Source of the DNA: Methanomicrobiales archaeon
GTDB lineage: Archaea; Halobacteriota; Methanomicrobia; Methanomicrobiales; JACTUA01
Reading direction: 5' to 3'
DNA: 64,000 nt
Assembly (NCBI GenBank): GCA_015660865.1
Contig: JACTUA010000003.1
Span: 124,001-188,000 of the forward strand
Part shown: positions 1 through 21,290 of the stretch, piece by piece
How positions within the stretch are numbered: the stretch's first letter is position 1
Layout of the letters: each line of letters starts with the position of its first letter
Translations under genes and position numbers: made by a program
The notes under the pieces: generated by a model
The model's input: only the letters and a program-made list of their open reading frames with translations
Told to the model about the DNA's origin: nothing
The model's database searches: none

Positions 1-1
1 C

Positions 2-1189: not shown

Positions 1190-2367
1190 CTAAAATTTAC
1201 ACCACCCACCATTTCGAACAATGCCAAATATTTTCCTTCCACGCGATCCCAGTTGTAATTGGCTTCGACATACGCCTTACCATTTTTCCCCAATCTTTTT
1301 CCTAGTTCGTTATCGGATACAAGGAGATTAATACACTCAACAAATTCATTATAATCCGCATAATACAGCCCGGCATTACTCCTCAAGCAATGTCCTTTGA
1401 GAACAGCACATCGTTCATTTACGACCGTAGGTGTTCCTAACGCCCAAGCTTCTGTCACTACAATAGAATAACTTTCAAATTCAGAAGGCATAATAACAAT
1501 TTTTGCCGCGATAATTCCATCGAACTTATCATTCTCCGGCAAGAATCCCAAGTGAAGAATGTCTGGACTATTGGGTATTTCTATAACTGCATTACCTATT
1601 AATACAAGTTTTAAATTTGACGGATTATTTTGTTTATATCTAATAAAGTAGTCGAATAACTGATTACAGCCTTTATTCCCATCAACTCTTCCAATATATA
1701 ATATAAAATCATGAGATAATTTATACTTTTTTTTGAATCTCTCTCCCTTAACATTTTCCGGGATTGTTAAACCCATCCCAATAATGTCATTTAATATGTT
1801 TTGAGTGTTGAATCGCCTTATAAGTGTATTTTTTTCTTCTTCCGTAAGATAAATAATTGCTTTAGGTAAACAAAAAAAAGATTTATTGATATTCAGATTT
1901 AACGTTGGTTCATCTTCAGCGGTTGGAATCAGAATACTTTTCTCATATACTAAAGGCAACCCAAAAAAACTTGGGTAATATCTGTATGTAAAAAAAACGA
2001 ATATCTCATAATCATCTTTATGATTTTTTATGAAATTCAATAATTTTGGGACGTACGGCCCCTGATCTTCTATCCATCTAACCTCATCAATTTCTGTGTG
2101 TGGTTCGCTAAATAACCGTTGGGTAAACGGATTGAATTTCTTGAGATCCCGCACTCTATCGACCTTAAATCGTCGTACGAGTACGCCATTAATGTTCTCT
2201 ATTCCTTCCGTGTACTCATTTCTCCAGGTGATATAATCTTTAGCGCAGGTTGTAAGTACTTCAATTTTATGAAATTGTGCAAGTCGTTCAGCGACGTGTC
2301 TACAGAGTGCTTCAGAACCGCCAGCAACATCAATCCCATATCGTTGAACAATAAATGCTATTCTCAT
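1174..2367 (-). CDS. Glycosyltransferase family 4 (GT-B fold)
   Basis: A 397-residue protein, the usual size for GT4 enzymes. The N-terminus (MRIAFIVQRYG...GGSE) is the glycine-rich acceptor-side loop. ILYIGRVDGNKG starts the C-terminal Rossmann domain, and EFESYSIVVTEAW carries the EX7E donor-binding motif. It should transfer a sugar from a nucleotide-sugar donor to a growing surface glycan on the cytoplasmic face. It is the distal gene of a minus-strand glycan cluster. The coding sequence is strikingly AT-rich, with long A/T runs and AAA/AAT/ATA codons, in contrast to the GC-rich core genes, which suggests horizontal acquisition. Donor and acceptor cannot be read from the sequence. Confidence 0.85.
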   Translation of the reverse strand: MRIAFIVQRYGIDVAGGSEALCRHVAERLAQFHKIEVLTTCAKDYITWRNEYTEGIENINGVLVRRFKVDRVRDLKKFNPFTQRLFSEPHTEIDEVRWIEDQGPYVPKLLNFIKNHKDDYEIFVFFTYRYYPSFFGLPLVYEKSILIPTAEDEPTLNLNINKSFFCLPKAIIYLTEEEKNTLIRRFNTQNILNDIIGMGLTIPENVKGERFKKKYKLSHDFILYIGRVDGNKGCNQLFDYFIRYKQNNPSNLKLVLIGNAVIEIPNSPDILHLGFLPENDKFDGIIAAKIVIMPSEFESYSIVVTEAWALGTPTVVNERCAVLKGHCLRSNAGLYYADYNEFVECINLLVSDNELGKRLGKNGKAYVEANYNWDRVEGKYLALFEMVGGVNFSHGNE

Positions 2368-2407
2368 CAGATTAACCCAAGTCTTTGTAGTGAATGCCTT
2401 TTCATCA

Positions 2408-3919: not shown

Positions 3920-3929
3920 TCAGTACTCC

Positions 3930-5180
3930 TTAGGATACTCCGTTAGTAATTGCCTCTACATTGATTGTAGGATTTAAATTAGTGACCCCTTCATAAAGTG
4001 GTTGTTTTTCGTTTCGCACAACTTTTAATGTTGCGATGTCATTGAGACGAAGTAAATATTCATCAAAAGAATTTATTGCTTTTCCTTTATTATCAATGGC
4101 AACGGTAATCAAATAATCATCAGGCTGTAAAGGTACTTTGAATTGATAGGATACCTGATACATTTTCCCCGGCAGGAGAGGATTGTTTTTTTGGTGCAAA
4201 AGATAGGTATTTGTCCCAAAAATTGACACCCCATACCGGTTCCGAATTAATATGCCAAATATTGGATCTTCGATAAGGCGTTCACTGCGAAATGAAAAGG
4301 ATATGATAATCTCATCATCGCTATGAACATGCGTGATGACAGTTTTCGATGAATCAAGGATCCTGATTGAATCAAATTCAATTTCACCTGTTGATATGTT
4401 CGAATGATTATTGAGAGTATCTTTTGTATCCATGAGAGCAACTGCTTTTTCGCCGGTATGTGATTGTATGCATATCCGTGATATGTATAAATCAACAATA
4501 CTCCGAGGAATCCCATACGATATCAACTTCCCATGATCCAATAATATCGCATAATCACATAATGTCATCACCGCATTCATATCATGCGACACAAACACGA
4601 TCGACCCCCCACTCGCTCGGAAATCCTGGATCTTCCGCATGCATTTCTGCTGGAAATACGCATCCCCCACAGCCAGTGCCTCATCAACAAGGAAACATTT
4701 CGGGTCTGCATGAATCGCGATAGAGAACGCGAGCCGCATCGTCATGCCGGAAGAATAGGTCTTGATGGGTTCGTGGATGAACTCCCCCAACTCGGAGAAA
4801 TCGATGATGGTCTGTTTCTTCCGGTCAATCTCGTCCCTGCTCATGCCGATGAGTGTCCCGTTCATGTAAATATTCTCAAGCCCGGTCATCTCCGCATTAA
4901 AACCGGTGCCGAGCTCAAGGAGCCCGGTGACTTTCCCGTCAATATGGATGGTCCCACTGTCCGGGATTACGATGCCTGATAGTATTTTCAACAGCGTGGA
5001 TTTGCCCGCGCCGTTCTGCCCGATGATGCCGAGAGTCTCTCCATCGCGCACCTCAAACGAGACGTTGTCTAGTGCCAGAAAATCCTTGTGATATCGCTTC
5101 TGGAGCAGGATCTCTCGTAGCCGGTCGGCAGGTGAATGGTAGAGTTTGAACCGTTTCGAGATGCCTTGGACTTTCATCAT
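3930..5180 (-). CDS. wzt: Polysaccharide ABC exporter, ATP-binding subunit (Wzt type)
   Basis: Residues ~1-240 form an ABC ATPase: Walker A GQNGAGKST (54-62), signature YSSGM (142-146), Walker B CFLVDE (162-167) and the H-loop FVSHD. Residues ~245-416 form an extra C-terminal domain like the Wzt beta-sandwich that binds the modified end of the exported glycan. The protein would power export of lipid-linked polysaccharide with the permease encoded just upstream. The start at 5180 has GAGGT upstream. The C-terminal third is more AT-rich than the ATPase part, as expected for a glycan-specific, exchangeable domain. Confidence 0.9.
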   Translation of the reverse strand: MMKVQGISKRFKLYHSPADRLREILLQKRYHKDFLALDNVSFEVRDGETLGIIGQNGAGKSTLLKILSGIVIPDSGTIHIDGKVTGLLELGTGFNAEMTGLENIYMNGTLIGMSRDEIDRKKQTIIDFSELGEFIHEPIKTYSSGMTMRLAFSIAIHADPKCFLVDEALAVGDAYFQQKCMRKIQDFRASGGSIVFVSHDMNAVMTLCDYAILLDHGKLISYGIPRSIVDLYISRICIQSHTGEKAVALMDTKDTLNNHSNISTGEIEFDSIRILDSSKTVITHVHSDDEIIISFSFRSERLIEDPIFGILIRNRYGVSIFGTNTYLLHQKNNPLLPGKMYQVSYQFKVPLQPDDYLITVAIDNKGKAINSFDEYLLRLNDIATLKVVRNEKQPLYEGVTNLNPTINVEAITNGVS

Positions 5181-5268
5181 ATTGAAGTACCTCGATTTTG
5201 TTCTCCGACTACATTAAAAATATCGCAGAGAGGATCCCTGTTTCTGACGCCTTCAGCTTGGGACATCA

Positions 5269-6057
5269 TCAGATGAAATCCCGGATATCTTTCTCCAGCT
5301 TCCGGAACAGGAAATAATCAAACAGAACCAGCAGCACACTAATTCCTGTCACGAGTGAGAGGTAGAAGAATGACGGCATCCTCTGGAACACGAACATATC
5401 GTGGTAGGCGGAGATGAATGCGAGCGCCGGATTCCAGATAAGGACCTGCTGGGCTACAACGGGGAGAATGCTGAAAACATAGACAATCGGGGTGAACCAG
5501 AACCAGATCTGCATGCCGATGGTGACCACTTCCTTGAGGTCCCGCAGAAAGACTACCAGCATGCCGAGGAAAAAACCGAGGGCGTAGGCGAACAGCTGCT
5601 GGATGATATATACGACGGGTACAAGGGCGAGGTAAGGTGAAAAGGAGAATCCTGTTACAAGAAGAATACCAAGGAAGATCCCTAAAGTCACAAAAAATGT
5701 GATACTCTCGGAAAGAACAATGAAAAGTGGCAGTGTCGGCAGATCGACATGGATCTTTGTAATGATATTCTTTTTATCGAGGTAGACCGTTGATGATCGC
5801 TGCACAGTATTTACAAAGGCGGTCCAGGGCACGAGTCCGGCAATGAGGTAGACTCCGTATCCCCAAACCGAAGTCATCCCCGGGAGCCGTGCGCCCATCA
5901 ACGTGCCGAAGATGACCATGTAGATGAGGATGTTGATCAGGGGATAGATGAAGGACCACATAAACCCGAGGGCAGATCCAGAATACCTCTCGATGAAATC
6001 CCGTTTGGCGAGCTCAACAATCAGGCTGAAGTTCACGATGGCCCCACTACCATCCAT
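5269..6057 (-). CDS. wzm: Polysaccharide ABC exporter, permease subunit (Wzm, ABC-2 family)
   Basis: A 262-residue polytopic membrane protein with about six hydrophobic segments. It begins with the short amphipathic stretch LAKRDFIERYSGSALGFMW, typical of ABC-2 exporters. It pairs with the ATPase 88 bases downstream to flip lipid-linked glycan across the membrane. The operon order Wzm-Wzt-methyltransferase-glycosyltransferase matches ABC-dependent O-antigen or S-layer glycan systems. Confidence 0.9.
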   Translation of the reverse strand: MDGSGAIVNFSLIVELAKRDFIERYSGSALGFMWSFIYPLINILIYMVIFGTLMGARLPGMTSVWGYGVYLIAGLVPWTAFVNTVQRSSTVYLDKKNIITKIHVDLPTLPLFIVLSESITFFVTLGIFLGILLVTGFSFSPYLALVPVVYIIQQLFAYALGFFLGMLVVFLRDLKEVVTIGMQIWFWFTPIVYVFSILPVVAQQVLIWNPALAFISAYHDMFVFQRMPSFFYLSLVTGISVLLVLFDYFLFRKLEKDIRDFI

Positions 6058-6273
6058 TGTGTCATTCCCTCTATATCATATCGTCTGATTTTCCTTGGAA
6101 AGGATGGTGACTGGTAGAAAATCTGTTGATGAAATCGCGGGCGCTGACTTGCGAACCATTCTTCAGGAGATCGTTTGAATACTTGGCCTGCGATGTGGAA
6201 GATTCCGGGAAACAAAATTACCAACAATGAAGATGAAGAGAATCAGCGGGGGTCGATACAGAACCCAACGATC

Positions 6274-7359
6274 TCATGGTGTCGATTGTGGATCTCCTGC
6301 GGTAATTGCGGCCTTCAATTGATCCCGGAAGCGTGCGCACGAGAAAGACCTGGCACGTGACTCGCATGGAATCCGGTAACGGGACGGATCTCTACTGATA
6401 GAACGCACCGCATCCACTATTTGATCCATCTTTGCCTGAACAAAGATACCGGTCTCTTCGGTCACTGTCTCAAGGTACCCCCCCTCCCTTACGGCGATCA
6501 CCGGCTTCCCGCTCGCCATCGCTTCGAGGGGTGTGAGGCCGTAATCCTCGTCCATCGCCGTGCAGATGTGCCCCCTGCAGCGGGCATAGAGACCACGCAG
6601 TTCATCTTCTCCAACCTCTCCAAGGATTGTGACATTGGGCGGAAGATCACTGATAAGTCCCTCCGCATACCGGGAGGCGTGATCTCCGTGTGCATAGCCA
6701 CCGACGATTGCCAGGCGCTCTTCAGGCAGGCGCCGGAAGGCCTCAATCTGCAGGTCGATCCGTTTCTCAGGATAGAGGCGATTCACCGACAGCCAGAAAT
6801 CACCGTATTCGATAAACTTGTATCGTTTGGCGTCGACCGGAGGATAGATCACCTCTGCATCTCTGTGATGGTATTTCAGAATCCGGGTTCGCACGTTCTT
6901 CGAGATTGCGATGATGCGGTCGATGTCGCACACTGACCGCTGATCGAATCGCCGGTGTAACCCGACCCAGGTAAGAAAGAACTGTCGAGTAAGGGGATCC
7001 TGACGTGAAAGAAATATCGGGTAGAGATCGTAGAATGCCCGGACCGGAGTGAAACAGTACCAGAGATTCGGATGGTGGCGGCGGGAAGCATAATGTGCCC
7101 AGTTACCACTGAAGATGAAGAAGTCATACTTACTGGAAAAATCACAGGTTGCAAACATCAGGCTGGCAGATACCTGCTTCAGCGGTGGAAACTTGATGGT
7201 CTTTCCCAGGCTGATCACCCGAACCGTGGGATCGATCCTCCGGACTGCATCGGTATCAGTCGTAATAATATCGGCATCAAGGATCTTTGCCATCTGAAGG
7301 GCGACCCGCTCTCCCCCTCCAATGGCGCCGAAATAATCGTGAAAGATTGCGACTTTCAT
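6274..7359 (-). CDS. Glycosyltransferase family 4
   Basis: A 361-residue GT-B glycosyltransferase. The N-terminus MKVAIFHDYFGAIGGGERV holds the GGGE loop, WLSVNRLYPEKRID begins the donor domain, and DEDYGLTPLEAM holds the EX7E motif. Enzymes of this subgroup are often mannosyl- or rhamnosyltransferases. It lies upstream of the ABC exporter and next to GDP-sugar genes, so a GDP-linked donor is plausible but inferred. The gap to the permease (~216 bases) shows no further gene. Confidence 0.87.
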   Translation of the reverse strand: MKVAIFHDYFGAIGGGERVALQMAKILDADIITTDTDAVRRIDPTVRVISLGKTIKFPPLKQVSASLMFATCDFSSKYDFFIFSGNWAHYASRRHHPNLWYCFTPVRAFYDLYPIFLSRQDPLTRQFFLTWVGLHRRFDQRSVCDIDRIIAISKNVRTRILKYHHRDAEVIYPPVDAKRYKFIEYGDFWLSVNRLYPEKRIDLQIEAFRRLPEERLAIVGGYAHGDHASRYAEGLISDLPPNVTILGEVGEDELRGLYARCRGHICTAMDEDYGLTPLEAMASGKPVIAVREGGYLETVTEETGIFVQAKMDQIVDAVRSISRDPSRYRIPCESRARSFSCARFRDQLKAAITAGDPQSTP

Positions 7360-7625
7360 ACCAAAGGGAGCTCTCTCCTTAGCTGTTGGTCAAAGCCGAT
7401 GTTAACCGTATGGTTTCCGGTCATTCAAATTATCTTTCCATGCGATAAAAGACGGAATTCTCACTCTGGCTTTTCCATCGCAATGTAGGGGCAGGCCGAA
7501 TTACACGTGGAAGGGATTTAGGCAATAATCCGCATATGAAAGCACCCGCATATCTTCATGGTAGGATGAAGAACAATCATATAAATGATAAAGTACGAAA
7601 AATGGAGACCGCAGCCAATCGCCTG

Positions 7626-8594
7626 TCATACCCGGCTATACCAGTAATCATAAATCGCCCTCAGGCTCTCATCGAATGATACTCTGGGCTGCCATCCAAT
7701 CTCACGTCGGATCTTTTCATTACTGCCGACTATATTAGGATTGTCCGCCGGGCGCATCAGGTCGGCTGAGGTCCTGACTTGTACGGATATCCCGGCGATG
7801 GATGAAAGCGCGGCTGCAATATCAGCGATCTTCCGTCCGGTACCGCTGCATACATTGTATACCTCTCCGGACCGGCCTCGCTCAACGAGCTTGAGGTACG
7901 CTTCAACCACATCACGCACATCGAGAAAATCCCGGATAATCGAACCGTCCCCTATCGTGAGCACCGGATCGCGCTTCCCACGGGCGATCTCTGCAACCTG
8001 TTTTGCGATCGAGCTCACCACGAACCTGGTATCCTGGCCGGGCCCTGTATGATTGAATGATCGGGTGGACACGACAGGGAAATGATAGCTGTCGGAATAG
8101 ATCGCTGCTAGCTGTTCTTGCGCCAAGCGTGCCACGGCATACGGATTCTGGGCATGTACTTTATGGCTCTCCCGAAGTGGTAAATCCTGTTCCTTAACCG
8201 ATCCATAGATCTCAGAAGATCCGACATTCAGAATCCGGGGATTCATGTCATTCTGCCGTACTGCCTCAAAGACATTGAGAAGGAGCGAGAGGTTATTCAG
8301 GACCGTCCCCCTGGGGTTCTTCCAACTTTCAGCGACTGAGCTCTGGGCTGCGAGTTGGATGATGGCATCCGGGTCAATCTCCTGTATCGTTGCATCTACC
8401 CAGGACGCATCCTGCATATCCCCTGCATGAAATGCTATTTCTTGCAACAGGGACTCTCGCGATGATATAAAATCCCAGGAAGGAGCGGACCTGCTCATCC
8501 CGTGAAGGGCAACATCAGGTCGGACACGGTGGAGATAATTGGCAAGATGCCCGCCAACGAAACCGCTGATGCCGGTGATGAGGATGGATCTCAT
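7626..8594 (-). CDS. rmd: GDP-4-dehydro-6-deoxy-D-mannose reductase (Rmd-like)
   Basis: An extended short-chain dehydrogenase of 322 residues. GISGFVGGH is the NAD(P)-binding GxxGxxG loop, and RSFNHTGPGQ is the segment characteristic of Rmd enzymes. Rmd reduces the product of Gmd to GDP-D-rhamnose, which suits its divergent pairing with gmd. The active-site motif reads YAVAR, so the usual YxxxK lysine position appears to be arginine. A related epimerase/reductase specificity (talose, fucose) cannot be excluded. Confidence 0.8.
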   Translation of the reverse strand: MRSILITGISGFVGGHLANYLHRVRPDVALHGMSRSAPSWDFISSRESLLQEIAFHAGDMQDASWVDATIQEIDPDAIIQLAAQSSVAESWKNPRGTVLNNLSLLLNVFEAVRQNDMNPRILNVGSSEIYGSVKEQDLPLRESHKVHAQNPYAVARLAQEQLAAIYSDSYHFPVVSTRSFNHTGPGQDTRFVVSSIAKQVAEIARGKRDPVLTIGDGSIIRDFLDVRDVVEAYLKLVERGRSGEVYNVCSGTGRKIADIAAALSSIAGISVQVRTSADLMRPADNPNIVGSNEKIRREIGWQPRVSFDESLRAIYDYWYSRV

Positions 8595-8963
8595 TCAGGT
8601 TCCACAAACAAGTTATGAGTAAAATTCATCGCATATTCATAAATATCTGATGGGCAGAGTATGAGGAACAGCCATGAATGCCCTGATTATCTAACGGAAT
8701 GTTGCCCAAGGAACCCACTATCTGCATTCTTTCTGGTCTTCGAATAAGATTGCATGTGTTCACAGACATCCATAGGCAGACATGTTCCCTTCCGGCAATG
8801 GATTCGCAACAGACCCAGCATTCCTGCAAGAGGCGTCCGCCGGTAGAGAGCCGGTGAAAGATCCTCTATGGGGTCATAAGAGTCAAGATCGGCTAACACC
8901 ACGCAGTTCGAAAACGATTTTAATAGGATCGAAAAGAAATAGACTGCTATCCTGGGAAGCACA
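8595..8963. other. Divergent rmd/gmd intergenic region, no convincing gene
   Basis: 369 bases between the divergent rmd and gmd genes. Short open frames here lack ribosome binding sites and recognisable composition. The right end holds the gmd promoter; the left half is AT-rich and may hold the rmd promoter. Confidence 0.6.
8909..8925 (+). promoter_or_regulatory. BRE/TATA promoter of gmd
   Basis: CGAAAACGA (BRE-like) is followed by TTTTAATA at 8918-8925, about 40 bases before the gmd ATG. A start site ~25 bases downstream would give a leader of roughly 15-20 bases. Prediction from pattern only. Confidence 0.5.
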
Positions 8964-10016
8964 ATGTCAAGCGGAAAAAAGGCATTCATTACGGGAATTA
9001 CCGGTCAGGACGGATCGTATCTGGCTGAGCTCCTGCTCAGCAAAGGCTACGAAGTTCACGGGATGGTCCGGCGCTCTTCAACATTCAACCGGAGCAGGAT
9101 TGACCATATCTACGTTGACCCTCATGATCCCAAGGCACAGTTTTTTCTCCATTACGGGGATCTGGGCGACTCGGAGCAGCTCGCAAATATCATCTATAAT
9201 CTGATGCCTGACGAGGTCTACCACCTCGGGTCGCAGAGCCACGTGCGGGTCAGTTTCGATATTCCTGAATACACCGGAAACGTCACTGGTCTTGGGGTAA
9301 CCCGTATCCTCGAGTCCGTGCGGAGGAGTGGCCACCCCATCCGTTTCTACCAGGCATCATCAAGCGAGATGTTTGGCACAGCAACCCCTCCGCAGGGGGA
9401 AGATTCGCCGTTTGAGCCGCGCAGCCCGTATGCCTGTGCAAAGCTCTATGCCTACTGGATGGTGAGAAATTACCGGCAGGGTTACAACCTCTTTGCCTCC
9501 AACGGGATCCTCTTCAATCATGAATCACCACGCCGCGGAGAGACATTCGTTACAAGAAAGATCACCCGGGGAATCGCTTCTATCCTGGCAAAAAAAGAAA
9601 AATACCTCTATCTCGGTAACCTCGAGGCGCGCAGGGACTGGGGCTTTGCCCCCGAGTATGTTGAGGCGATGTGGAGGATGCTTCAGGCAGAGAAATCCGA
9701 TGATTTTGTTATCGGGACCGGCGAGGCTCACTCAGTGCAGGAGTTTCTTGATGCGTCCTTCAGTTATGCAGGCCTCACACCTGATGAACATGTAAAGATC
9801 GATCCCAACTACTTCCGTCCAACCGAGGTTGGAGTACTTATCGCGGACGCGAGAAAGGCAGAGAAGATCCTCCGTTGGAAGCCCGGTATTAAATTTTATG
9901 ATCTCATTAAAATTATGGTCGATGCCGATCTGCGTAACGCAGGTCTTGAACCACCAGGGGAAGGAGATGAGATCCTTGCAAAGAAATTCCCCAAACGCTG
10001 GTGGAAAGAGGACTGA
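8964..10016 (+). CDS. gmd: GDP-mannose 4,6-dehydratase
   Basis: A 350-residue short-chain dehydrogenase that converts GDP-D-mannose to GDP-4-dehydro-6-deoxy-D-mannose using bound NADP. Visible motifs are [12 protein letters not shown] (cofactor loop), SSSEMFG (catalytic Ser/Glu region), YACAK (YxxxK) and the Gmd signature [14 protein letters not shown]. The length is that of the family. With Rmd it supplies GDP-deoxyhexose, probably GDP-rhamnose, for the glycosyltransferases and ABC exporter on the other strand. Confidence 0.95.
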
Positions 10017-10131
10017 CCTGTTCATTCATTCAATAGATTTTGAAGGTTGTCGCCTAGCCGTTTCTTCCTCTCGAAACCCCGGGAACAATACTTTCATCAT
10101 ACCCCCAAAAGAAAAAGGATAGCGTGAAGGT

Positions 10132-10593
10132 ATGGCGACCATCGAAGAGAACATCGGCTACCATTTCAAGAACCCGGCCTTCCTCACCCAGGCCCTGACC
10201 AGGAAAGCGTTTGCGAACGAGGAGCGGCAGCAGGGCAGGCACCAAGATGACCAGGAGATCCTCTGCACTCTGGGGGATGCGGTGCTTAAGACGGTTTTCG
10301 TGGAGCTCCTGATCCGAGCACGATACCCCACACCCGATGCCATTATCCAGGCGAAGATCCAGCTGGAACATGAAGAGGCCCTCGCCGGTATCGCTGGCCA
10401 GATAGGGATTGCCCAAGCCATCCGTCTGGGCGCAGGGGAGAGAAAGCAGGGGGTGGTGGAGAAGGGACCCGATGTCCTTGCCGAGACCCTGAAGGCTACC
10501 ATCGGGGCAATCTACCTGGACGGGGGCTTCGGAGCCGCGAGGGACGCAGTCATCAGGTGGTATGGCAACAGGATCAGGCCACATGGCAGATGA
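10132..10593 (+). CDS. Stand-alone RNase III-fold protein with degenerate catalytic residues
   Basis: 153 residues covering one RNase III endonuclease domain and no dsRNA-binding domain. The fold is recognisable from NPAFLTQALTRKAF, LGDAVL and AETLKATIGAIYLDGG. Aligned by eye with E. coli RNase III, E38 and D45 are kept (E42, D49), but E41 is Cys45, D114 is Glu118 and E117 is Lys121. E117 is essential for metal-dependent cleavage in the bacterial enzyme, so this copy is probably inactive or altered. It may bind RNA, as MrnC-type or ribosomal RNase III-fold proteins do. It sits alone between gmd and a convergent gene. Confidence 0.8.
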   Translation: MATIEENIGYHFKNPAFLTQALTRKAFANEERQQGRHQDDQEILCTLGDAVLKTVFVELLIRARYPTPDAIIQAKIQLEHEEALAGIAGQIGIAQAIRLGAGERKQGVVEKGPDVLAETLKATIGAIYLDGGFGAARDAVIRWYGNRIRPHGR

Positions 10594-10722
10594 TATGCAT
10601 CTGCCCCGTTTTTTCAGATAATGAATTATACAAACCAGGATGGGAGTATGCCTGATGAATAATTCATGAAGGACATCCTCGTTGAGATTCTCACAAGCGG
10701 GAAAGAGGGGAGGCGCCCATTG

Positions 10723-11220
10723 TCACCCCCTTTTGTACCCGAACTTCCGGAGTAATCCCGTTCTCCATGTGATTCCGTCAGGCCCTTCCACGCCCTTCGG
10801 TTTCGCCCCGTCAATGACCCCCATGATGCCTCTTCCTGTAGCAGACTCGGCGATGATAACCTCGGCGGGGTTCGCCGTTGCGCAGTAGATGTTGCAGACC
10901 TCCTGGATGTTCTTTAGGGCATTGAGGACATTTATCGGGAAGCAGTTCCTGAGGAAGAGGATGAAGGAGTGGCCTGCGCCGATGGCGAGGGCGTTCGTGG
11001 TGGCAAGGGCTTTCAACTCCTCATCGTTCCCCTCCACCCGGATCAGGCACTCTCCCGAGGACTCGCAGAAGGCGAGCCCGAACCTCGCCCCTGGAACAGA
11101 CCCCACAACCGCCTCGGCGATGTCCTCCACGGTCTTGATGAAGTGGGACTGCCCGAGGATGAAATTCACATCCTCGGGTTTCTCGATCTTCACGGTCTTG
11201 AGTTCAAGAGTTCCGGGCAT
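10723..11220 (-). CDS. Adenosine-specific kinase family protein (DUF355/Adenosine_kin)
   Basis: The family hallmark ELKTVKIEKPEDVNFILGQ opens the protein, followed by GARFGLAFCESSG and a C-terminal GVIDGAKPKGVE. Family members are ~160 residues, and an archaeal member was crystallised as an adenosine-specific kinase-like fold; the physiological role is uncertain. I place the start at 11220 (MPGTLELKTVK) because GGTG lies about ten bases upstream and the family begins there. An in-frame ATG at 11286 would add 22 residues. It converges on the RNase III-like gene. Confidence 0.8.
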   Translation of the reverse strand: MPGTLELKTVKIEKPEDVNFILGQSHFIKTVEDIAEAVVGSVPGARFGLAFCESSGECLIRVEGNDEELKALATTNALAIGAGHSFILFLRNCFPINVLNALKNIQEVCNIYCATANPAEVIIAESATGRGIMGVIDGAKPKGVEGPDGITWRTGLLRKFGYKRG

Positions 11221-11472
11221 GGATGCACCGGAGAGAGATGGAACCTCGGGATTTAAATCCATTGACTGCATGAGGGAGTATTGCATGGCCTGTTCCGGAA
11301 TGAATCCGTCCCATTTCGGTGATACCTGTACTACCGTGGGCCGGATTCATTGGCGTGAATCCCTGTGGAGTTTTCCAAGATTCCTTTGACACGGGAATCG
11401 CGGGCATCCCTCCATGGGATCCTCGTTGAGATACCCATCATCCTTCTCCCGTCGGGCCGGCCAAGAATGAGA

Positions 11473-11524: not shown

Positions 11525-13420
11525 ATGGCGGAACAGTTCGACGTGAAACTGGTTGAAGAGGCGAAGTACTACACGCCTCTACCCGAGTACCGCGAGAAAG
11601 CCTGGGTCAAAGACTACGACGAGGAGTACAGTGAGTTCCTGAAGGATCCCGAGGCCTTTTGGGGAAAGATCGCGAAGGAGCTCGACTGGTTCGGCCCCTG
11701 GGATAAGGTCCTTGACTGGAAGTATCCCTATGCAAAGTGGTTCGTGAACGGGAAGCTGAACATCACGTACAACTGCCTGGACCGGCACGTCTTCAACCAC
11801 CGGCGGAACAAGGTGGCCATCATCTGGAGGGGGGAGAACGGCGAGGAGCGGATCTTCACCTACCAGATGCTCTACCGCCAGGTCAACCGCTTCGCAAACG
11901 GGCTTAAAAGGCTCGGTATCGTGAAGGGCGACCGGGTCTGCATCTACATGCCCATGATCCCCGAGCAGCTCATCGCCATGCTCGCCTGCGCGAGGATCGG
12001 CGCCGTGCATTCTGTCGTATTCGGCGGTTTCGGCGTCACGGCCCTCAATTACCGGATCAACGATACCGAGTCAAAGGTGGTCATCACCGCCGACATCGGG
12101 TTCCGGCGGGGAAAGACCATCCCCTTAAAGACCCTCGTCGAGGAGGCCATCATCAACGCCCCGAGCGTGGAGCGGGTCGTCGTCCTCCGGAGGAAGGAGC
12201 CGAAGGTGGAGATCCACTCCGGGATCGAGATCGACTTCTACGACCTCATGGAGGGGGTTGAGCCCGTCTGCAAGCCCGAGGTGATGGACGCCGAGGATCC
12301 CCTTTTTATCCTCTACACGAGCGGGTCAACAGGAGCCCCGAAAGGGGTCATCCACACCTGCGGCGGGTATATGGTCGGGACCTACTACACGAGCAAGGTG
12401 ATCTTTGACTTAAAAGAGGAGGACGTCTACTGGTGCACTGCGGACGTGGGCTGGGTCACCGGCCACTCCTACCTCCTCTACGGGCCTCTCGCCGTGGGGG
12501 CCACAATCTTCTTCGGCGAGGCCGTTCCTGATTATCCCGATGCAGGGAACTTCTGGAGACTCATCCAGGACATGGGGATCACCATCTTCTACACGGCACC
12601 TACCGCCATCCGGATGTTCATGAAGGTGGGGGAGCAATGGCCGGACAAGTATGACCTCTCCTCCCTCAGGATCCTGGGGTCTGTCGGAGAGCCGCTCAAC
12701 CCTGAGGCCTTCGAGTGGTACTACCGGGTCATTGGCAAGGACAGGTGCCCCATCGTCGACACCTGGTGGCAGACCGAGACGGGCATGCAGATGATCACCA
12801 CCTTCGTGGGGGAGAAGATGCGGCCCGGATTTGCAGGGAAAGGCATCCCTGGCGTGATCCCCGATGTGGTGGACAAGCACGGAAAACCGGTGAAGACCGG
12901 GACCCTCGGCTTCCTCATCATAAAGAATCCCTGGCCTGCCATGTTCCGTACCATCTACAAGAACGACGAGCGCTACCGGAAGTACTGGGAGACCATCCCC
13001 AACGTGTACACTGTCGGGGATCTCGCCGTCAAGGGGAAGGACGGGTACATCATGATCCTCGGGCGTGCCGATGACATCATCATCGTGGCAGGGCACAACA
13101 TCGGGACCGCCGAGGTCGAGAGCGCCCTCGTCTCCCACCAATCGGTTGCAGAGGCCGCGGTCATCGGGAAACCCGACGCCCTCAAGGGAAACCTCATCAA
13201 AGCCTTTGTCATCCTCAAGCTGGGGGAGAAACCGAGCGACAAGCACAAGCTGGACCTCAAGTACCATGTGCGGATGACCCTCGGGCCCATCGCCCAGCCC
13301 GACGATATCGAGTTCGTGGACAAGCTCCCCAAGACCCGGAGCGGTAAGATCATGCGCCGCGTCCTCAAGGCAAAGGAGCTGGGGATAGACCCAGGCGATA
13401 TCTCCACTCTCGAGGATTAA
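11525..13420 (+). CDS. acs: Acetyl-CoA synthetase, AMP-forming (copy 1)
   Basis: A 631-residue acyl-adenylate-forming enzyme that makes acetyl-CoA from acetate, ATP and CoA. Motifs: [12 protein letters not shown] (P-loop), TWWQTETG (acetyl-CoA synthetase A5), ILGRADDII (hinge) and [10 protein letters not shown] with the catalytic lysine that is acetylated in bacterial Acs. Downstream of the AT-rich promoter, GGGGAT precedes the ATG. A second 631-residue copy lies 5.7 kb away on the other strand; the two agree closely in the core and differ mostly in the first ~20 residues. Between them lies the PHA cluster, so a supply role for polymer synthesis as well as biosynthesis is likely. Confidence 0.95.
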
Positions 13421-13731
13421 CAACCCCTCTTTTCGACCAGAAGATCCAAAGTACGATGGCTCCTTGATATTTCCAGGGGGAGACCAAAAAGCCGATGATA
13501 CGAATATCTGACAAGTATATCAGGTTTCTCGAAGCCACGGTACCGGTGGTTCGGAGTTCCCGGATCCCCCTCTATTCCTGCAGGTACTCGAAGAAGGTGT
13601 ACACCCAGCCACCAGCTTCTCGCTCTTCTCCTGTTTAAGGAGTATATGAGGGAGGATTACTGGAATATCGTTGAGATCGGGGAACTCATGACTCCTGTCA
13701 TGTCACCAGTTCCACCTAAGAATAGCTATTT
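13421..13731. other. Intergenic region between acs1 and phaB holding a transposase remnant
   Basis: 311 bases between two convergent genes. The middle is a broken transposase fragment (separate entry). No intact gene or clear inverted terminal repeats are visible. Confidence 0.6.
13495..13705 (+). pseudogene. Transposase N-terminal remnant with frameshift
   Basis: From the ATG at 13495 the frame reads YIRFLEATVPVVRSSRIPLY then SKKVYTQ, and after a one-base insertion near 13609 it continues HQLLALLLFKEYMREDYW and IVEIGELM in the next frame. This pattern (R/KIPLYSCRYSKK.YTQHQLL.L.LFKEY) is what I recall at the N-terminus of IS4/IS5-type transposases common in methanogens. Only ~65 codons survive and no catalytic DDE region remains. 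It marks an old insertion at the border of the PHA cluster. The family assignment rests on recall and needs a search. Confidence 0.6.
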
Positions 13732-14583
13732 TCAGATGTAGAGCCCCCCATTCAGGTCTATAACCTGGCCCGTTATGTATGCCCCGTCTTCTGATACAAG
13801 GTAAGCCACTGCCCCAGCCACCTCGGATGGCTCCCCGAGTCTTCCGAGAGGTATCTGGGCGATAATTTTATCCAGTATTTCTTTGGGGACCGATCTGACC
13901 ATATCAGTCCCTATGTATCCTGGTGCTATTGCATTGACCGTTATACCTTTCGTGGCAAATTCCTTTGCCAGAGTTTTTGTGAGACCAATCAAGCCTGCCT
14001 TTGAGGCTGCATAGTTTGACTGTCCAAAGTTGCCCATTCTCCCAATGACAGAGGAAATATTCACGATTCTGCCATACTTCCTCTCGATCATACCATCTAT
14101 AACTGCTTTGGTGCAGTAGAAAGGACCATCTAGGTTCACAGATAGGACATCAGACCACATCTGGGGTGTCATTTTTACGAACGATTTATCCCTGGTGATT
14201 CCTGCATTATTCACGAGGATATCGATCTTGCCTAACTGCTTTACCACCTCGTCCCGCATCCTGTTCACCTGCTCAAAGTCATCGACGTTGGCCTGGACGA
14301 TGCAGGAATGCTTGCCCATGGAGCCTATCAAGTCTGATACTTCTTTTGCGTCCTCAGTCCGGTTCATCTCTTCTGCCATCATGAATAATTTAGAAGCATC
14401 TCTGAGCACGCCCGTCTGATCAACGAGCTTTGAGACCTTCTCTGCTTGCTCCTTGCTCATCTGATAGTTGATGGCAACATCCGCACCTTCCTCGGCGAGA
14501 CGCAGAGCAATCGCCCGGCCAATCCCCCGGGAGGCGCCGGTAACCAAAGCGACTTTACCTTCCAAGCTTGCTTTCTCTCTCAT
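13732..14583 (-). CDS. phaB: Acetoacetyl-CoA reductase (PhaB/FabG-type SDR)
   Basis: A short-chain dehydrogenase with TGASRGIGRAIA (cofactor loop), NNAGITRD, NISSVIGRMG (catalytic Ser) and YAASKAG (YxxxK), ending ITGQVIDLNGGLYI as PhaB/FabG enzymes do. It should reduce acetoacetyl-CoA to (R)-3-hydroxybutyryl-CoA, the PHA monomer. I choose ATG 14583 because AGGTGAG sits six bases upstream; an upstream in-frame ATG at 14634 overlaps the thiolase. At 283 residues it is ~35 longer than usual because of an insert after the second helix (TGVLRDASKLFMMAEEMNR region). It is the last gene of the pha operon, five bases after phaA. Confidence 0.85.
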   Translation of the reverse strand: MREKASLEGKVALVTGASRGIGRAIALRLAEEGADVAINYQMSKEQAEKVSKLVDQTGVLRDASKLFMMAEEMNRTEDAKEVSDLIGSMGKHSCIVQANVDDFEQVNRMRDEVVKQLGKIDILVNNAGITRDKSFVKMTPQMWSDVLSVNLDGPFYCTKAVIDGMIERKYGRIVNISSVIGRMGNFGQSNYAASKAGLIGLTKTLAKEFATKGITVNAIAPGYIGTDMVRSVPKEILDKIIAQIPLGRLGEPSEVAGAVAYLVSEDGAYITGQVIDLNGGLYI

Positions 14584-14588
14584 AGTAC

Positions 14589-15767
14589 TCACCTTTTTAC
14601 CACCATGGCAATACCCTGACCCCCCCCAACGCAAAGGGCGGCAAGGCCATAGGTACCTTTCTTCCTCTGTAATTCATGCAGGAGTGTCACGAAGATCCGT
14701 GTACCACTTGCACCTATCGGGTGCCCAAGGGCTATAGCGCCGCCGTTCACATTTACTTTGTCAGTGTTCAACCCAAGTTCCCGAATAACCGCAATGCTCT
14801 GTGCTGCAAAGGCTTCATTGAGTTCGATCAGGTCAAGTGTATCAAGAGTTATCCCGGCACGCTCGATGGCTCTTCTGGTTGCACCAACAGGCCCCATGCC
14901 CATTATCTCAGGGGGAACTCCACAGAACCCGTAGCTTTTGATTGTGGCCATGGGCTCGATTCCCTTTTCCCTGGCTTTTTCTTCAGACATCAAAAGGACA
15001 GCCCCGGCTCCGTCATTAATCCCTGATGCATTGCCTGCAGTCACGGTTCCGTCCTTTTTAAATGCGGGTTTTAGTTTTGCAAGAACTTCTTTTGTCGTGC
15101 TGAACCTGGGGAACTCATCGGTATCAAAGAGTACAGGCTCCCCTTTTGGCTGGGGAACTTCTATGGGGACGATCTCGTCCCTGAACGCACCTGCCCTGAT
15201 TGCTGCCTCTGCCTTATTCTGGCTTTTTGCCGAGAACTCATCCTGCGCCTGCCTTGTAACGCCGTATCTTTCGGCCACGTTCTCGGCAGTCATTCCCATA
15301 TGGTAATTGTTGAAGATATCCCACAATCCGTCGTATATCATCAGGTCTACAGCTTCATCATTGCCCATCCGTGCTCCCCAGCGGGTTTTTTTCAGGGCAT
15401 ACGGAGCCTGCGACATGGATTCTATACCGCCTGCGAGAACAACCTCCGCATCACCAAGCATGATAGCCTGGGCACCGAGTACCACCGATTTCAGGCCCGA
15501 GCCACACAGTTTGTTCACACCATAGGCGGGTACCGCGTCTGGAATTCCCGCGAAAATGGCAGCCTGCCGTGCCACATTCTGGCCGTGGCCGGCTGAAAGA
15601 ACATTTCCCAGGATGACTTCTTCAACCTCATGTGCTTCAACACCGACCCGTTTCAAGGCATCCTTCAATACCACAGAACCAAGCTGTACGGGGCTAAAAT
15701 CCTTCAGGCTTCCCCCGAATTTTCCGACAGCGGTCCGTGTTGCCGATACAATAACGACATTATGCAT
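14589..15767 (-). CDS. phaA: Acetyl-CoA acetyltransferase (thiolase, PhaA)
   Basis: 392 residues, the normal length for biosynthetic thiolases. Active-site Cys88 lies in [21 protein letters not shown] carries the histidine and CVGGGQGIA the second cysteine. It condenses two acetyl-CoA to acetoacetyl-CoA, the first committed step to PHB. GGTGAAAATGA precedes the ATG. It sits between phaC and phaB on the same strand. Archaeal thiolases also serve the mevalonate pathway, but those are usually paired with a DUF35 protein and HMG-CoA synthase, neither of which is here; context and the bacterial-type sequence favour PHA synthesis. Confidence 0.92.
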
Positions 15768-15927
15768 TCATTTTCACCTGTTTCCCTGGTGGATGCATCC
15801 ACGTGAGCAAACGATCTCTCTCCTCAATGTTTCTGAACCGCTGCAACGGTTCCCCTCACCTTCTTCTCCTTCTTTGACAAACGGCAGGTCAGCTTTTCTC
15901 CCACTACCGCCTCTTTTGTGATAATTG

Positions 15928-17100
15928 CTACCTTGCTTTCCCGTCTCGTTTTTTCGGCTTTGATTCGCGACGCTTCCCTTTTTGTGAAGCATTCTCTTGT
16001 ACGGGCTTCTTTTCTCCAGCTCGATCAAGGAGAGACTTCGGCTTTAACCACGCAGCGATCTTGGGGCAGACCTCTTTCTGGGATTTGGAGCCCACAAAGA
16101 TACCTATATGGCCGGTCGGGAAAACCAGCGTCGCTTTCTCTTTACTGGATACTGCATCGCCCAGCGGTTTACTTGCGTCGTTTGGAACGAGGTGGTCAAA
16201 TTCTGCCATGACGTTCAGCAGGGGCATGGTGATATTTTTCAGATGAATCGTCTTCCCGCCAATCACCATCTTGTTTTTTATAAGCAGGTTCTTCTGGTAG
16301 CAGTCTTTTTGAAACTGCCGGTAGGCTTCGCCTGCCTGGTCAGGACTGTCGAATATCCATTTCTCCATTCTGAGGAAGTTCCTGACGGTTTCTTCGTTTC
16401 TCACCTCGCATTCCTTATCACCGGGTTCGCATTCGATTCGCTCAAACAGACCTACGTACTTGTCAATCATCGTCCTGAACGGGTCGGTGAGCAGGAACCC
16501 CACATTCAGAAAATCTCCGGGCACGATTCCATAGTAGTCGACGATTTTGTCCACGTCCAGGGCCTTGGCCCAGATATGAAGAAGTCCTTTATCAGTATCA
16601 AAGTGTACAGGAGTCACCAGGGTGACCAAGTTCTTCACCTTTTCAGGATGCAGTGCGGCGTACATCACAGAAAAAGTTCCTCCCTGGCATACGCCAAGCA
16701 GGGTAATCTTATCCAATCCCGACCTTTCTCTGACTTTATCGACGGCATTATCGATATACCCGTTCACATAATCGTCAAGGGTGAGGTACCTGTCTGCGCC
16801 TGAGGGATACCCCCAGTCAATGATGTAGACATCAAAACCTTCCTCCAGCAGTTTCTTTATCACACTTTTATCGGGCTGGAGATCAAGGATATAGTGCCTG
16901 TTCACAAGCGCATACACGATGAGTATGGGAACAGGATGTGGTTTTTCTACGGTTGGAATATAATGGAGAAGTTTCATCTTATCTTCGGTATAGACGATCT
17001 CGGAAGGGGTCGTTCCAACCGAAATGTCCGGGCGCTTTAAGAATACTTCCATCCCTCGTTTGAATTTTTCATAATCTCCCATTAATGTAAGTTCGTTCAT
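15928..17100 (-). CDS. phaC: Polyhydroxyalkanoate synthase subunit PhaC (class III-like)
   Basis: A 390-residue alpha/beta-hydrolase-fold polymerase. The lipase-like box GVCQGG holds the nucleophile Cys138, with Asp302 (AEFDHLVP) and His331 (PTGHIGIF) completing the triad of PHA synthases. The size (~350-390) and the adjacent PhaE identify class III/archaeal PhaEC rather than class I/II enzymes of ~560-600 residues. It polymerises (R)-3-hydroxyacyl-CoA at the granule surface. The last ~35 residues are Lys/Arg-rich and look disordered, an extension that might bind nucleic acid or the granule. GGAGA precedes the start. Confidence 0.92.
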   Translation of the reverse strand: MNELTLMGDYEKFKRGMEVFLKRPDISVGTTPSEIVYTEDKMKLLHYIPTVEKPHPVPILIVYALVNRHYILDLQPDKSVIKKLLEEGFDVYIIDWGYPSGADRYLTLDDYVNGYIDNAVDKVRERSGLDKITLLGVCQGGTFSVMYAALHPEKVKNLVTLVTPVHFDTDKGLLHIWAKALDVDKIVDYYGIVPGDFLNVGFLLTDPFRTMIDKYVGLFERIECEPGDKECEVRNEETVRNFLRMEKWIFDSPDQAGEAYRQFQKDCYQKNLLIKNKMVIGGKTIHLKNITMPLLNVMAEFDHLVPNDASKPLGDAVSSKEKATLVFPTGHIGIFVGSKSQKEVCPKIAAWLKPKSLLDRAGEKKPVQENASQKGKRRESKPKKRDGKAR

Positions 17101-17133
17101 GGCGTCTCCTCTCCTCTCCTCACAAAGAATACA

Positions 17134-17694
17134 TCATTTCTTCTTTGACAGCTCGCTTACCTGGCTGGTTAATTTCTTCACCGTTTTCCGTAGAGAATAC
17201 AGTTCCTTGTTTATCTCATCGATCTCTGTTTTTGTGGGGAGATTCATCGGTTTTAAGTAATTCTCTTCAATTACTTCCCTGTTCAATTTTTGGAATTCCA
17301 TGAGACGAGACATGAATTTCCCCAGATCGTTGGCAAAATGACCGGATTTAAGGAATTCGTGAAAAGTCTCACTATAGGTCTCCATCCAGATCTTGTAAAA
17401 ATCCTTGTAGCTCTCAGGACTGAGATCTCCTTTCATGTCGGTTGCTGTCTTTTCACGCACCTTTTGCATTGCCTCTTTGAATACAATCTGGAGATCGCTA
17501 TTGGATTCCATCCATGCCGTATAGAGATTCACAAAGTTAGAGAAACCCATCATCATCTTTTCAGATTTCTCACGTGCTGGACCCATAGCAGGCATCTCGA
17601 CAAGCCGGCCAAGGTTGGCCTGGTAGGTCTTTACCCAGAGGTCAAAAAATTCCTGTGTGGATTCAAAAGTGGATTCGGAACTGGATTTTTCCAT
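17134..17694 (-). CDS. phaE: PHA synthase subunit PhaE
   Basis: 186 mostly helical residues. The C-terminus (LPTKTEIDEINKEL then RKTVKKLTSQVSEL) matches the end of PhaE proteins, where a PTxxEIDE motif leads into a coiled coil. PhaE has no catalytic residues; it binds and activates PhaC and is required for polymerisation in class III systems. It is shorter than bacterial PhaE (~350) but close to archaeal ones (~180). It starts two bases after the stop of the larger upstream paralogue, so the two are probably translationally coupled. Confidence 0.82.
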   Translation of the reverse strand: MEKSSSESTFESTQEFFDLWVKTYQANLGRLVEMPAMGPAREKSEKMMMGFSNFVNLYTAWMESNSDLQIVFKEAMQKVREKTATDMKGDLSPESYKDFYKIWMETYSETFHEFLKSGHFANDLGKFMSRLMEFQKLNREVIEENYLKPMNLPTKTEIDEINKELYSLRKTVKKLTSQVSELSKKK

Positions 17695-17696
17695 AT

Positions 17697-18821
17697 TTAA
17701 ACCCGCTTGGAGCTAAAATCCGACATCTTTGCCATCATGGCAAAGGTGTCTGAATATATCTTTCCCATTATCTTTACAGGATCCATCATCTCTTTCATCG
17801 GACCTGCAATGGGCATGTCCTCGAAGAAGCTATCAAAAGCTTTTTCGTACATTTTTACCCAGAGGTCATAAAATTCCTTATATCCCTTTGGATCAGTGGT
17901 TTGTTTTGTAATTTCATTGGCTTTTTGTGCGAGTTTTTCCAGTGTTGTTATCCAGGTCTTGTACACCTGCAGATAAATATTGGTGCTCTGCATGAAGTCC
18001 TCGAAAACTTCTTTTGAAGGCTGCATGGACTGGAAATCAAACACTTTGCCATAGGTCTTCTGGTAGGTTTTCAGCCACAGGTTATAAAATTCCTTGTATG
18101 CTTCAGGAGTCGCGCTTCCATGGGAGAGTTCTTCCATTTTATCAGAGAGCTCTGATATGGATTCGATCCACGGCTCGTACAGCTTGGCAAATGAATGCTT
18201 CCATAGCTTGGATATCTGCACAAAATTTTCTGAATAGATATCCGGGAGACCTGTGTAATTTTCAAATATCGCTTTTGTACCTACCGTGGCAGGCAGGGCA
18301 AGAAGGTCGTCGAATATTTTCTCATACGACTTCATCCAGACGGTATAGCACTTCTTATATTGTGCTGGATCCGGCTTGCTCTGGAGTAGCTCTCTTGTTT
18401 TCCGGGAATTCTCTTCTAACTCGGCAATCCATGACCTGTAGAGTCTGTTCGATTCCTCAGCGCTTGCCATGAATTTCTCAAGCATCCCTTTCGTGGATTC
18501 CAGCGTTGGCATTGGATAAAATGTACCAAAGGTGTTTCGGTACGTTTTCATCCACTCATCATAAAATTCCTTATACTTCTGTGGGGCGGCTTCTTTTGAG
18601 AGTTCTGCCGCCTTCTCAAACAGTTCTCCTGTGGATTCAAGCCAGGGCTTGTACAGTGTACGGTAGGACTTCTCCCACACTTTTGAGACAGTGGTATAGC
18701 TGTCAGCCGCCGTCTTGAAAATATCCTTCCTCTCTTCGTTCGCCGTTGCACCTTTCTTCTCTTCACTCTTTCTAACCAAATAATTCAACTCCTTTTTCAT
18801 TGTTTTAGGTTTTATCTTCAC
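17697..18821 (-). CDS. Large PhaE/phasin-like protein with two-fold internal duplication
   Basis: 374 helical residues built from two similar ~135-residue halves (about 45-177 and 204-337). Each half starts with an LYxPWxES segment and carries two copies of a YKxxYxxWxKxYxxxF motif; the four copies lie near residues 83-100, 155-172, 242-261 and 314-331. The same motif appears in the neighbouring 186-residue PhaE, so the proteins are related. As first gene of the pha operon it is probably a granule-surface (phasin) or synthase-scaffold protein; this is inference. The longest frame begins with GTG at 18821; the ATG at 18800 is an alternative. Confidence 0.75.
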   Translation of the reverse strand: MKIKPKTMKKELNYLVRKSEEKKGATANEERKDIFKTAADSYTTVSKVWEKSYRTLYKPWLESTGELFEKAAELSKEAAPQKYKEFYDEWMKTYRNTFGTFYPMPTLESTKGMLEKFMASAEESNRLYRSWIAELEENSRKTRELLQSKPDPAQYKKCYTVWMKSYEKIFDDLLALPATVGTKAIFENYTGLPDIYSENFVQISKLWKHSFAKLYEPWIESISELSDKMEELSHGSATPEAYKEFYNLWLKTYQKTYGKVFDFQSMQPSKEVFEDFMQSTNIYLQVYKTWITTLEKLAQKANEITKQTTDPKGYKEFYDLWVKMYEKAFDSFFEDMPIAGPMKEMMDPVKIMGKIYSDTFAMMAKMSDFSSKRV

Positions 18822-19148
18822 TCTAAACGGGGCAGTTAATAGAATAGGATTCCCATTCTCATTTCCTGCAAAGTTATAGGATGTCGGGATTGTATGTGAT
18901 ATACATGCAATCCCTTGAGAAAAGGCGATGGACTAAAAGCGTGCGAGCTTCTTTCCTTGCTCTCCCCGCATATACATAGGTGCCTATGAGGGATATAGTT
19001 ACGCATTACGGGGTTTTTTTTAAAAATTAGTTTTAATACATGTCAAAAATGTAAAAGGGGTCAATAAAAAGAATAATTCAGCGTTGAGATTGAATTGATT
19101 TTCATTAACTCCTATCAAAGAATTTACTTTCCAAGAAAAATTTGGAGA
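18822..19148. other. Promoter region of the pha operon
   Basis: 327 AT-rich bases between acs2 and the pha genes. It contains a strong dyad (separate entry), a possible minus-strand TATA (CCTATAACTT, ~18871-18880) just downstream of it, and T-rich sequence (19011-19030) that may terminate acs2. No gene seen. Confidence 0.6.
18886..18914. promoter_or_regulatory. 12-bp inverted repeat, candidate operator of the pha operon
   Basis: GGGATTGTATGT, five bases (GATAT), then ACATGCAATCCC: 11 of 12 positions pair. It lies 65-93 bases upstream of the first pha gene and immediately upstream of a TATA-like element, where an archaeal activator or repressor dimer would bind. A role in pha control is inferred. 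Confidence 0.55.
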
Positions 19149-21044
19149 TTAGTCCTCCAGCGTTGAGATATCACCTGGATCGATACCCAGCTCCTTTGCC
19201 TTGAGCACCCGTCGCATAATCTTTCCGCTTCTCGTTTTTGGTAAACTATCAACGAATTCAATCTCAGACGGCATCGCAATTGGCCCAAGTGTCATCCGCA
19301 CATGGTGGATGAGTTCTGATCTCAGTTTATCGCTTGGAGTGTGGCCAACCCGAAGTATTACGAACGCCTTCAGGATATTGCCTTTGAGAGGATCTGGTTT
19401 ACCAATCGCAGCCGCTTCGGCTACTGCACGATGGGAGACAAGGGCACTCTCGACCTCGGCAGTTCCAATATTGTGGCCTGCGACGATGATAACATCATCA
19501 GCACGCCCTAGTACCATGATGTAGCCATCTGTATCCTTAACCGCCAGGTCGCCCGCTGTGTAGGTATTCGGAATCGTGAACCAGTACTTTCGGTACCGTT
19601 CATCGTTCTTTAAAACGGTGCGGAACATGCTGGGCCATGGTTCCTTTATCACGAGAAAACCTCCCTGGCCGGTTTGAACAGGTCTCCCGTTTTTATCCAC
19701 AACATCTGCGACAACACCTGGAATCGCTTTACCGGCAAATCCGGGTTTCATCGGTTCTCCGACAAGAGTGGTTATCATATGCATACCCGCCTCTGTCTGC
19801 CACCAGGTATCTACGATGGGGCATCTCGTCTTCCCGATCACCTGGTAATGCCACTCGAAGGCCTCAGGGTTGAGTGGTTCGCCGACAGAGCCGAGGATGC
19901 GGAGAGAGCTCAAGTCATACTTATTCGGCCATTCCTCCCCCAGCTTCATGAACATGCGGATCGCCGTCGGGGCAGTATAAAATATGGTAATACATTGCTC
20001 CTCAATCAATCTCCACCAGGCCCCTGGATCCGGGAAATCGGGAGTTCGCTCGGTGATAAAGACTGTCGCACCGGCACAGAGGGGCCCGTATACGATGTAC
20101 GAATGGCCGGTAATCCAGCCAGGATCGGCGGTACACCAGTATATATCATCCTCCTTGAGGTCAAAGACGCATTTCATCGTGTGGTATACGCCAACCATAT
20201 AGCCGCCGCAGGTGTGGACCACTCCTTTTGGTGCCCCTGTTGAACCGCTGGTGTAGAGGTAAAATAATAGATCTTCTGCATCCATCACCTCGGGTTTGCA
20301 ATCAACCTCAACACCCTCCATGATCTCGTTGAAGTCGACCTCAATCTCCTGGTGGAGTTCGATGGGTGGTTCCTGTCTTCGGAGAACGATGACACGTTCA
20401 ACACTCGGTGCATTGGTTATTGCTTCATCGACGATGATCTTGAGTGGCAGGGCTTTTCCCCTTCGCATTCCAACGTCTGCCGTTATGACAAACTTTGCCT
20501 CAGCATCATTCATCCGGAAATTGAGAGCACCAGCACCAAACCCGGCAAAAACTACGTTATGGATTGCCCCGATTCGCGCACATGCCAGCATTGCAATGAT
20601 CTGTTCGGGAACGAGTGGCATGTAAATGCAGACGCAGTCGCCTCTTTTCACACCAATCTTTTTCAAACCATTTGCAAAACGCATTACTGCCTTGTAGAGC
20701 TGGTTATACGTGTAAAAGCGCCCTGCTTCACCTTCACCTCGCCAGATGAGCGCGATCTTATTTCTATTTTTACCCAGAGCGTGACGATCAAGGCAATTAT
20801 ACGTAATATTTAGCTTCCCATTGACAAACCATTTCGCGTAAGGATAATTCCAATCCCTCACCTTATCCCATGGTTTGTACCATTCAAGTTCACGGGCCAC
20901 GTTTCCCCAGAATTCATCTGGGTTGGAGAGGAACTCGCGGTAGGTCCAGTTATAATCTCGTACCCAAGCATTCTGTTTGTAACTGGGGTCGGGGCTATAA
21001 CTGGATTCCTGTCCGATTGATTTAACATCAAACTTTTCTGCCAT
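19149..21044 (-). CDS. acs: Acetyl-CoA synthetase, AMP-forming (copy 2)
   Basis: 631 residues from the ATG at 21044, chosen because GGAGGTGAT lies upstream and the start then matches copy 1 (MAEKFDVK versus MAEQFDVK). Motifs: [20 protein letters not shown] (TETG in copy 1), ILGRADDVI hinge and [10 protein letters not shown] with the catalytic lysine. It makes acetyl-CoA from acetate. It is co-oriented with and directly upstream of the pha genes, separated by a 327-base promoter region, so it may be expressed under the same conditions. It appears to be a duplicate of the convergent-side copy at 11.5 kb. Confidence 0.95.
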
Positions 21045-21091
21045 GGAACCATCACCTCCGCCGTCTTCGGGCATTGCACCCTCTGCTGGTG

Positions 21092-21112
21092 CAATATATT
21101 TACTTTTCTAAA
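21092..21112 (-). promoter_or_regulatory. BRE/TATA promoter of acs2
   Basis: On the minus strand TAGAAAAGTA (BRE-like) runs into AAATATATTG, ~50 bases before the acs2 ATG. A start ~26 bases downstream would leave a leader of about 27 bases containing the strong Shine-Dalgarno. Confidence 0.5.
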
Positions 21113-21290
21113 ATCTGACACCATTGGACGTACGCAGTTGAATTAACTGGATAATCTTACCTTTTTATCAATTCACAGAAAAAATTGAAGAATTTACGGG
21201 ATAAGGGTAGGTCAGGCAATAAAAATGTAGACCGCCGGTCGATGGATCATCCGTTTCGACTCATGCCAGCTGATAGCCTAACTACCCATC

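Follow-up and report, generated by a model that had tools for sequence, protein, structure and literature searches.

A PhaE-derived protein with four repeat units and a putative phasin-like role, encoded in a PHA cassette inserted into a methanogen genome

We describe a protein in which a PhaE-type hairpin occurs four times, arranged as two duplicated halves. It is encoded beside phaE and phaC in a 64,000-nucleotide stretch (the window) of a Methanomicrobiales genome. With moderate confidence, we favor the view that it is a multivalent, phasin-like granule-surface protein, derived from PhaE and encoded in a mobile PHA cassette.

RESULTS

The PHA cassette and the four-unit gene

The PHA genes are on one strand in the order four-unit protein, phaE, phaC, thiolase, phaB, and the four-unit gene ends 2 bp upstream of phaE. 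The features of the block are as follows.

13434..21284, no strand assigned: inserted PHA cassette, whose flanks (ACS1 and the TBP gene) are ~45 bp apart in sister genera
13732..14634, minus strand: phaB-type SDR (acetoacetyl-CoA reductase), true start probably inside the ORF
14589..15767, minus strand: phaA-type thiolase
15928..17100, minus strand: phaC, class III PHA synthase (TIGR01836, 481 bits, above the cut-off of 365)
17134..17694, minus strand: phaE, small PHA synthase subunit, 186 aa, with two motifs and a C-terminal segment (PF09712, 2.9e-26)
17697..18779, minus strand: four-unit PhaE-derived, phasin-like protein, 360 aa, with a probable TTG start (homologue starts; SD-like AAAGGAG)
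19149..21074, minus strand: acetyl-CoA synthetase ACS2, the upstream gene within the inserted block (GC3 0.54, cassette-like)

The listed ORF (17697-18821, minus strand) is present and would encode 374 aa if read from its first codon. However, the start is probably the TTG at 18779, giving 360 aa, because AAAGGAG lies 9 nt upstream of it and homologues start there, at residue 15 of the longer frame. PhaC has intact Cys, Asp, and His sites (GVCQGG, FDH, and TGH). With these residues, the thiolase, phaB, and phaE all present, the cassette has, on paper, every step needed to make polymer from acetyl-CoA. PhaB has an insertion of ~32 residues after its NYQ segment (window ~14300-14460), which is found in most Methanoperedens copies but not in the Methanosarcina copy. 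We dismissed the idea that this insertion is damage, because Methanoperedens copies have it too. The cassette is flanked by ACS1 (11525-13420) and ACS2 (19149-21074), which have opposite orientations and encode proteins that are 73% identical.

The protein is built by internal duplication

The halves and motifs are listed below, with residues numbered for the 360-aa form.

18309..18707, minus strand: N-terminal half, residues 25-157, units U1 and U2 (Smith-Waterman alignment, shuffles, hhalign)
17832..18233, minus strand: C-terminal half, residues 183-316, units U3 and U4 (alignment with shuffles, hhalign)
18528..18575, minus strand: motif 1, YKEFYDEWMKTYRNTF, starting at residue 69
18312..18359, minus strand: motif 2, YKKCYTVWMKSYEKIF, starting at residue 141
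18051..18098, minus strand: motif 3, YKEFYNLWLKTYQKTY, starting at residue 228
17835..17882, minus strand: motif 4, YKEFYDLWVKMYEKAF, starting at residue 300

An earlier note on this DNA had proposed that the protein arose by internal duplication, with halves of ~135 residues that each carry two motifs also found in the adjoining small PhaE. All of this held up. In a Smith-Waterman self-alignment, residues 25-157 matched residues 183-316 over 134 columns, in line with the claimed length, with a repeat offset of 158 and a score of 308. Shuffled controls of the same composition had a mean score of 37 and a maximum of 80 (z ~40). Compared as profiles with hhalign, the halves matched at a probability of 100% and an E value of 1.2e-51, and the C-terminal half matched the core of the small PhaE (E 3.1e-23). 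Two motifs fall in each half, and the small PhaE has two of its own, at residues 17 and 100. The motif in the four-unit protein has the form Y-x-x-F/C-Y-x-x-W-x-K-x-Y, continuing xxxF/Y. Behind the four motifs are DNA-level repeats at 18537, 18321, 18060, and 17844, and phaE holds two more.

Judged by these alignments, the two halves share ancestry. The deeper repeat unit is a helical hairpin, present in four copies. The closest unit pairs were U1/U3 and U2/U4, and for each unit pair none of 1,000 shuffles came near the real score. When units of 23 proteins were placed in a tree (few columns, with several weak forks), they clustered by position across species, so both duplications appear to predate the radiation of the family. 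Helical sequence rich in K, E, and Y may produce spurious similarity. As an alternative to duplication of a PhaE unit, however, convergence of such low-complexity sequence is extremely improbable here and is refuted at the sequence level by the shuffles and profiles, with unit positions also kept across the family.

Secondary structure prediction gave four pairs of helices, each with one long and one short member. Seven of nine predicted helix segments were more amphipathic than shuffled sequence (p<0.05). A tertiary model (pLDDT 60, pTM 0.33) was too uncertain for the halves to be compared structurally. A PDB sequence search with the four-unit protein and the small PhaE found no significant relative, and neither did a fold search with models of both, the model of the longer protein being weak.

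The four-unit protein derives from PhaE but lacks its C-terminal segment

The protein had been described in the same note as PhaE/phasin-like, and family models agreed. It matched PF09712 (PhaE) above the cut-off (E 2.5e-9, 37 bits; cut-off 25.7) and PF09361 (Phasin_2) just below it (E 1.6e-4, 22.3 bits; cut-off 24.9). Each unit is homologous to the neighboring small PhaE, matching it with E values from 2.5e-11 to 8.6e-18. The four-unit protein scored 19.8 bits against TIGR01834 (PhaE), below the cut-off of 155, and the small PhaE next door was likewise below it at 86.8 bits. Among 24 family members, PF09712 matched 22 and Phasin_2 matched 2.

A PhaE core model found the core hairpin (FYxxWxxxY) in all 48 unique full-length members of the family. 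The PhaE C-terminal segment (LPTxxDIDE/coiled) was present in 15 of 15 small PhaE proteins and in none of the 48. Four PhaE proteins from haloarchaea and bacteria also had this segment, and they had no significant self-similarity. Therefore, with the C-terminal segment gone from all 48, the four-unit protein is derived from PhaE but is probably not a bona fide PhaE.

The family follows PhaC in Methanoperedenaceae

The four-unit protein was found in 27 Methanoperedenaceae genomes, often in multiple, tandem copies and typically beside phaE-phaC. The class that contains Methanosarcina and Methanoperedens was represented by 238 genomes. Of these, 30 encode the four-unit protein, including all 26 with an above-cut-off (full-length class III) PhaC. 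In a sample of the phylum, just 5 of the 46 genomes with an above-cut-off PhaC had it. Outside Methanoperedenaceae it occurred in the source genome, in two Methanosarcina genomes (one with a rearranged form), and in one genome of another family, where the copy is on a 4.8-kb contig and may be contamination. The family is restricted to PhaC-bearing Methanoperedenaceae genomes and rare recipients. A search of viral contigs found no virus- or Borg-borne copy, and a search of a plasmid collection found distant PhaE proteins only.

Some members are longer. L014, L015, L016, and L091, at 500-557 aa, begin with a tandemly repeated N-terminal unit of the form SSWWEERK...PxxEDQEKRYRxEQERY. Within the flanks examined, no phaE or phaC was near these members, L014-L016 among them, so the linkage to phaE/phaC is not universal.

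The earlier note knew of no standard PhaE or phasin with this architecture. That was right insofar as we found no described PhaE subfamily like it, and no description of the four-unit protein in the open-access literature. Yet the form is common in Methanoperedenaceae and is already covered by the Pfam model for PhaE. It has thus gone undescribed, but it is not unique.

A phasin-like role is favored over a second PhaE

In the pathway we propose, the core hairpin of PhaE would have been duplicated twice in succession to give the four-unit protein. Its four amphipathic, aromatic-rich hairpins could then make several low-affinity contacts per chain, to the polymer and/or to PhaC, and the true PhaE next door would retain the synthase-activating role. 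Phasins are proposed to bind PHA through amphipathic helices (PMC5658603), and in Haloferax mediterranei, phaP is directly upstream of phaEC (PMC9049629). We infer granule binding, a coat role, and PHA production by the host.

The strongest competing explanation is that the protein belongs to the PHA synthase itself as a further subunit. It would then be a lengthened PhaE, able to bind several PhaC molecules and to control how active or how clustered the synthase is. This explanation accords with the above-cut-off PF09712 match, the homology of every unit to PhaE, the place of the gene in the operon, 2 bp upstream of phaE, and the presence of the protein wherever its class has an above-cut-off PhaC. 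However, the segment kept in the 15 small PhaE proteins and in the haloarchaeal and bacterial ones examined is missing, complete loci keep a true phaE beside phaC, and there are more copies per genome than a stoichiometric subunit would need. We consider this explanation rather unlikely. A coat role is favored over a second PhaE because the C-terminal segment was lost and a true phaE was retained next door. The amplified copies, amphipathic helices, and phaP-like position upstream of phaEC also favor a phasin-like role. Less probable still, at a low likelihood, is that the protein has both roles, as the earlier note had suggested, and acts as a multivalent tether keeping PhaC-PhaE on the granule surface, for which repeated PhaE-type units would give multivalency and amphipathic, aromatic helices would fit polymer contact.

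The cassette was probably acquired from a Methanoperedens-like donor

The host assembly (1.94 Mb; 99% complete; 0.11% contamination) is a draft of nine contigs from a high-GC methanogen. Its McrA is 62-64% identical to Methanoperedens McrA, and formate dehydrogenase and H4MPT-pathway genes lie near the cassette. The host order has at least 232 species and belongs to a different class from Methanosarcina. Judged by McrA, formate dehydrogenase, the size of this group, and kinship, the order is probably Methanomicrobiales. When we checked 232 genomes of the order for PhaC, only the source genome had one above the cut-off. In sister genera, ACS1 and the TBP gene (at window 11525-13420 and 21324, respectively, in the source genome) are separated by ~45 bp and this site is empty of the cassette, whereas here the gap is 7.85 kb. 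The cassette genes are low in GC, with GC3 of 0.52-0.56 versus 0.61-0.91 in flanking genes. The two junctions showed no exact target-site duplication, just the short similar sequences ACCCCTCTTTT and ACCCATCTTTT. Elsewhere, at window 1-8000, GC falls to 0.41-0.49 across a cluster of genes for polysaccharide export and glycosyltransferases, which is possibly another acquired block.

A related cassette is present in a Methanosarcina genome (L004), whose McrA matches M. barkeri and in which the cassette flanks are 77-92% identical to other Methanosarcina. The window and L004 copies were sisters in trees of the four-unit protein (100/100), PhaC (91/88), and thiolase (86/87), and a larger tree nested both within Methanoperedenaceae diversity. 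This sister relationship and nesting indicate that the cassette was transferred. Judged by these trees, the donor was most likely Methanoperedens-like, and the cassette either passed between two methanogen lines or entered each separately. In L004, a multicopy repeat (5302-5494) is at the border of the cassette (5300-11300) and another (12489-12692) is ~1.2 kb past its far side, suggesting cassette mobility.

A draft assembly in nine contigs and a block of foreign GC3 might also arise if the cassette were an assembly or binning artefact and the gene not a methanogen's. We regard this as very unlikely. The contig that contains the block is at least 188 kb long, with host genes on both sides of the block, and estimated contamination is low. 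Both junctions fall exactly between two genes that are adjacent in sister genera, and the sister copy is in a Methanosarcina contig with Methanosarcina-like flanks.

DISCUSSION

phaC and phaE have been reported in Methanoperedens (PMC8561730, PMC11337218), where PHA accumulation is experimental (PMC11337218), and a PHA pathway has been reported on Borgs (PMC11208441). We found no report in the open-access literature of PHA genes in Methanomicrobiales or of PHA storage in methanogens. The inserted cassette predicts PHA synthesis by some methanogens. Methanoperedens, a methane-consuming archaeon, stores carbon as PHA, and the four-unit protein is a candidate for its major granule protein. The most expressed genes of Methanoperedens include "a phasin," although its identity with the four-unit family was not established there (PMC11208441). 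A bolder proposal, which we advance only tentatively, is that Methanoperedens uses the four-unit protein, as a lineage-specific multivalent granule protein, both as its main PHA coat and to tether PhaC, and that the cassette, having moved into the present host and Methanosarcina, gave these methanogens PHA storage.

PhaE proteins did not form one cluster in a published Methanoperedens pangenome (PMC8561730). Automatic annotation merges the four-unit protein with PhaE, which may account for the split clusters. The family also suggests a route by which a synthase subunit could become a granule-coat protein, through hairpin duplication and loss of the synthase-type tail.

Among known systems, PhaE (PF09712/TIGR01834) shares with the four-unit protein the core helical hairpin with FYxxWxxxY, an operon with phaC, and an above-cut-off PF09712 match. 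However, the four-unit protein has four hairpins in two duplicated halves without the LPTxxDIDE segment, fails TIGR01834 (19.8 versus 155 bits), and is accompanied by a separate phaE. Phasins (PF09361 and other Pfam phasin families) are likewise helical, amphipathic, and encoded next to phaC, and there is the weak Phasin_2 match, but the four-unit protein is longer, PhaE-derived, and below the Phasin_2 cut-off, with granule binding that is putative. H. mediterranei PhaP is also archaeal, and its gene is upstream of phaEC, as is the four-unit gene. However, PhaP has ~154 aa compared with 360 aa, and the likeness here is one of gene position.
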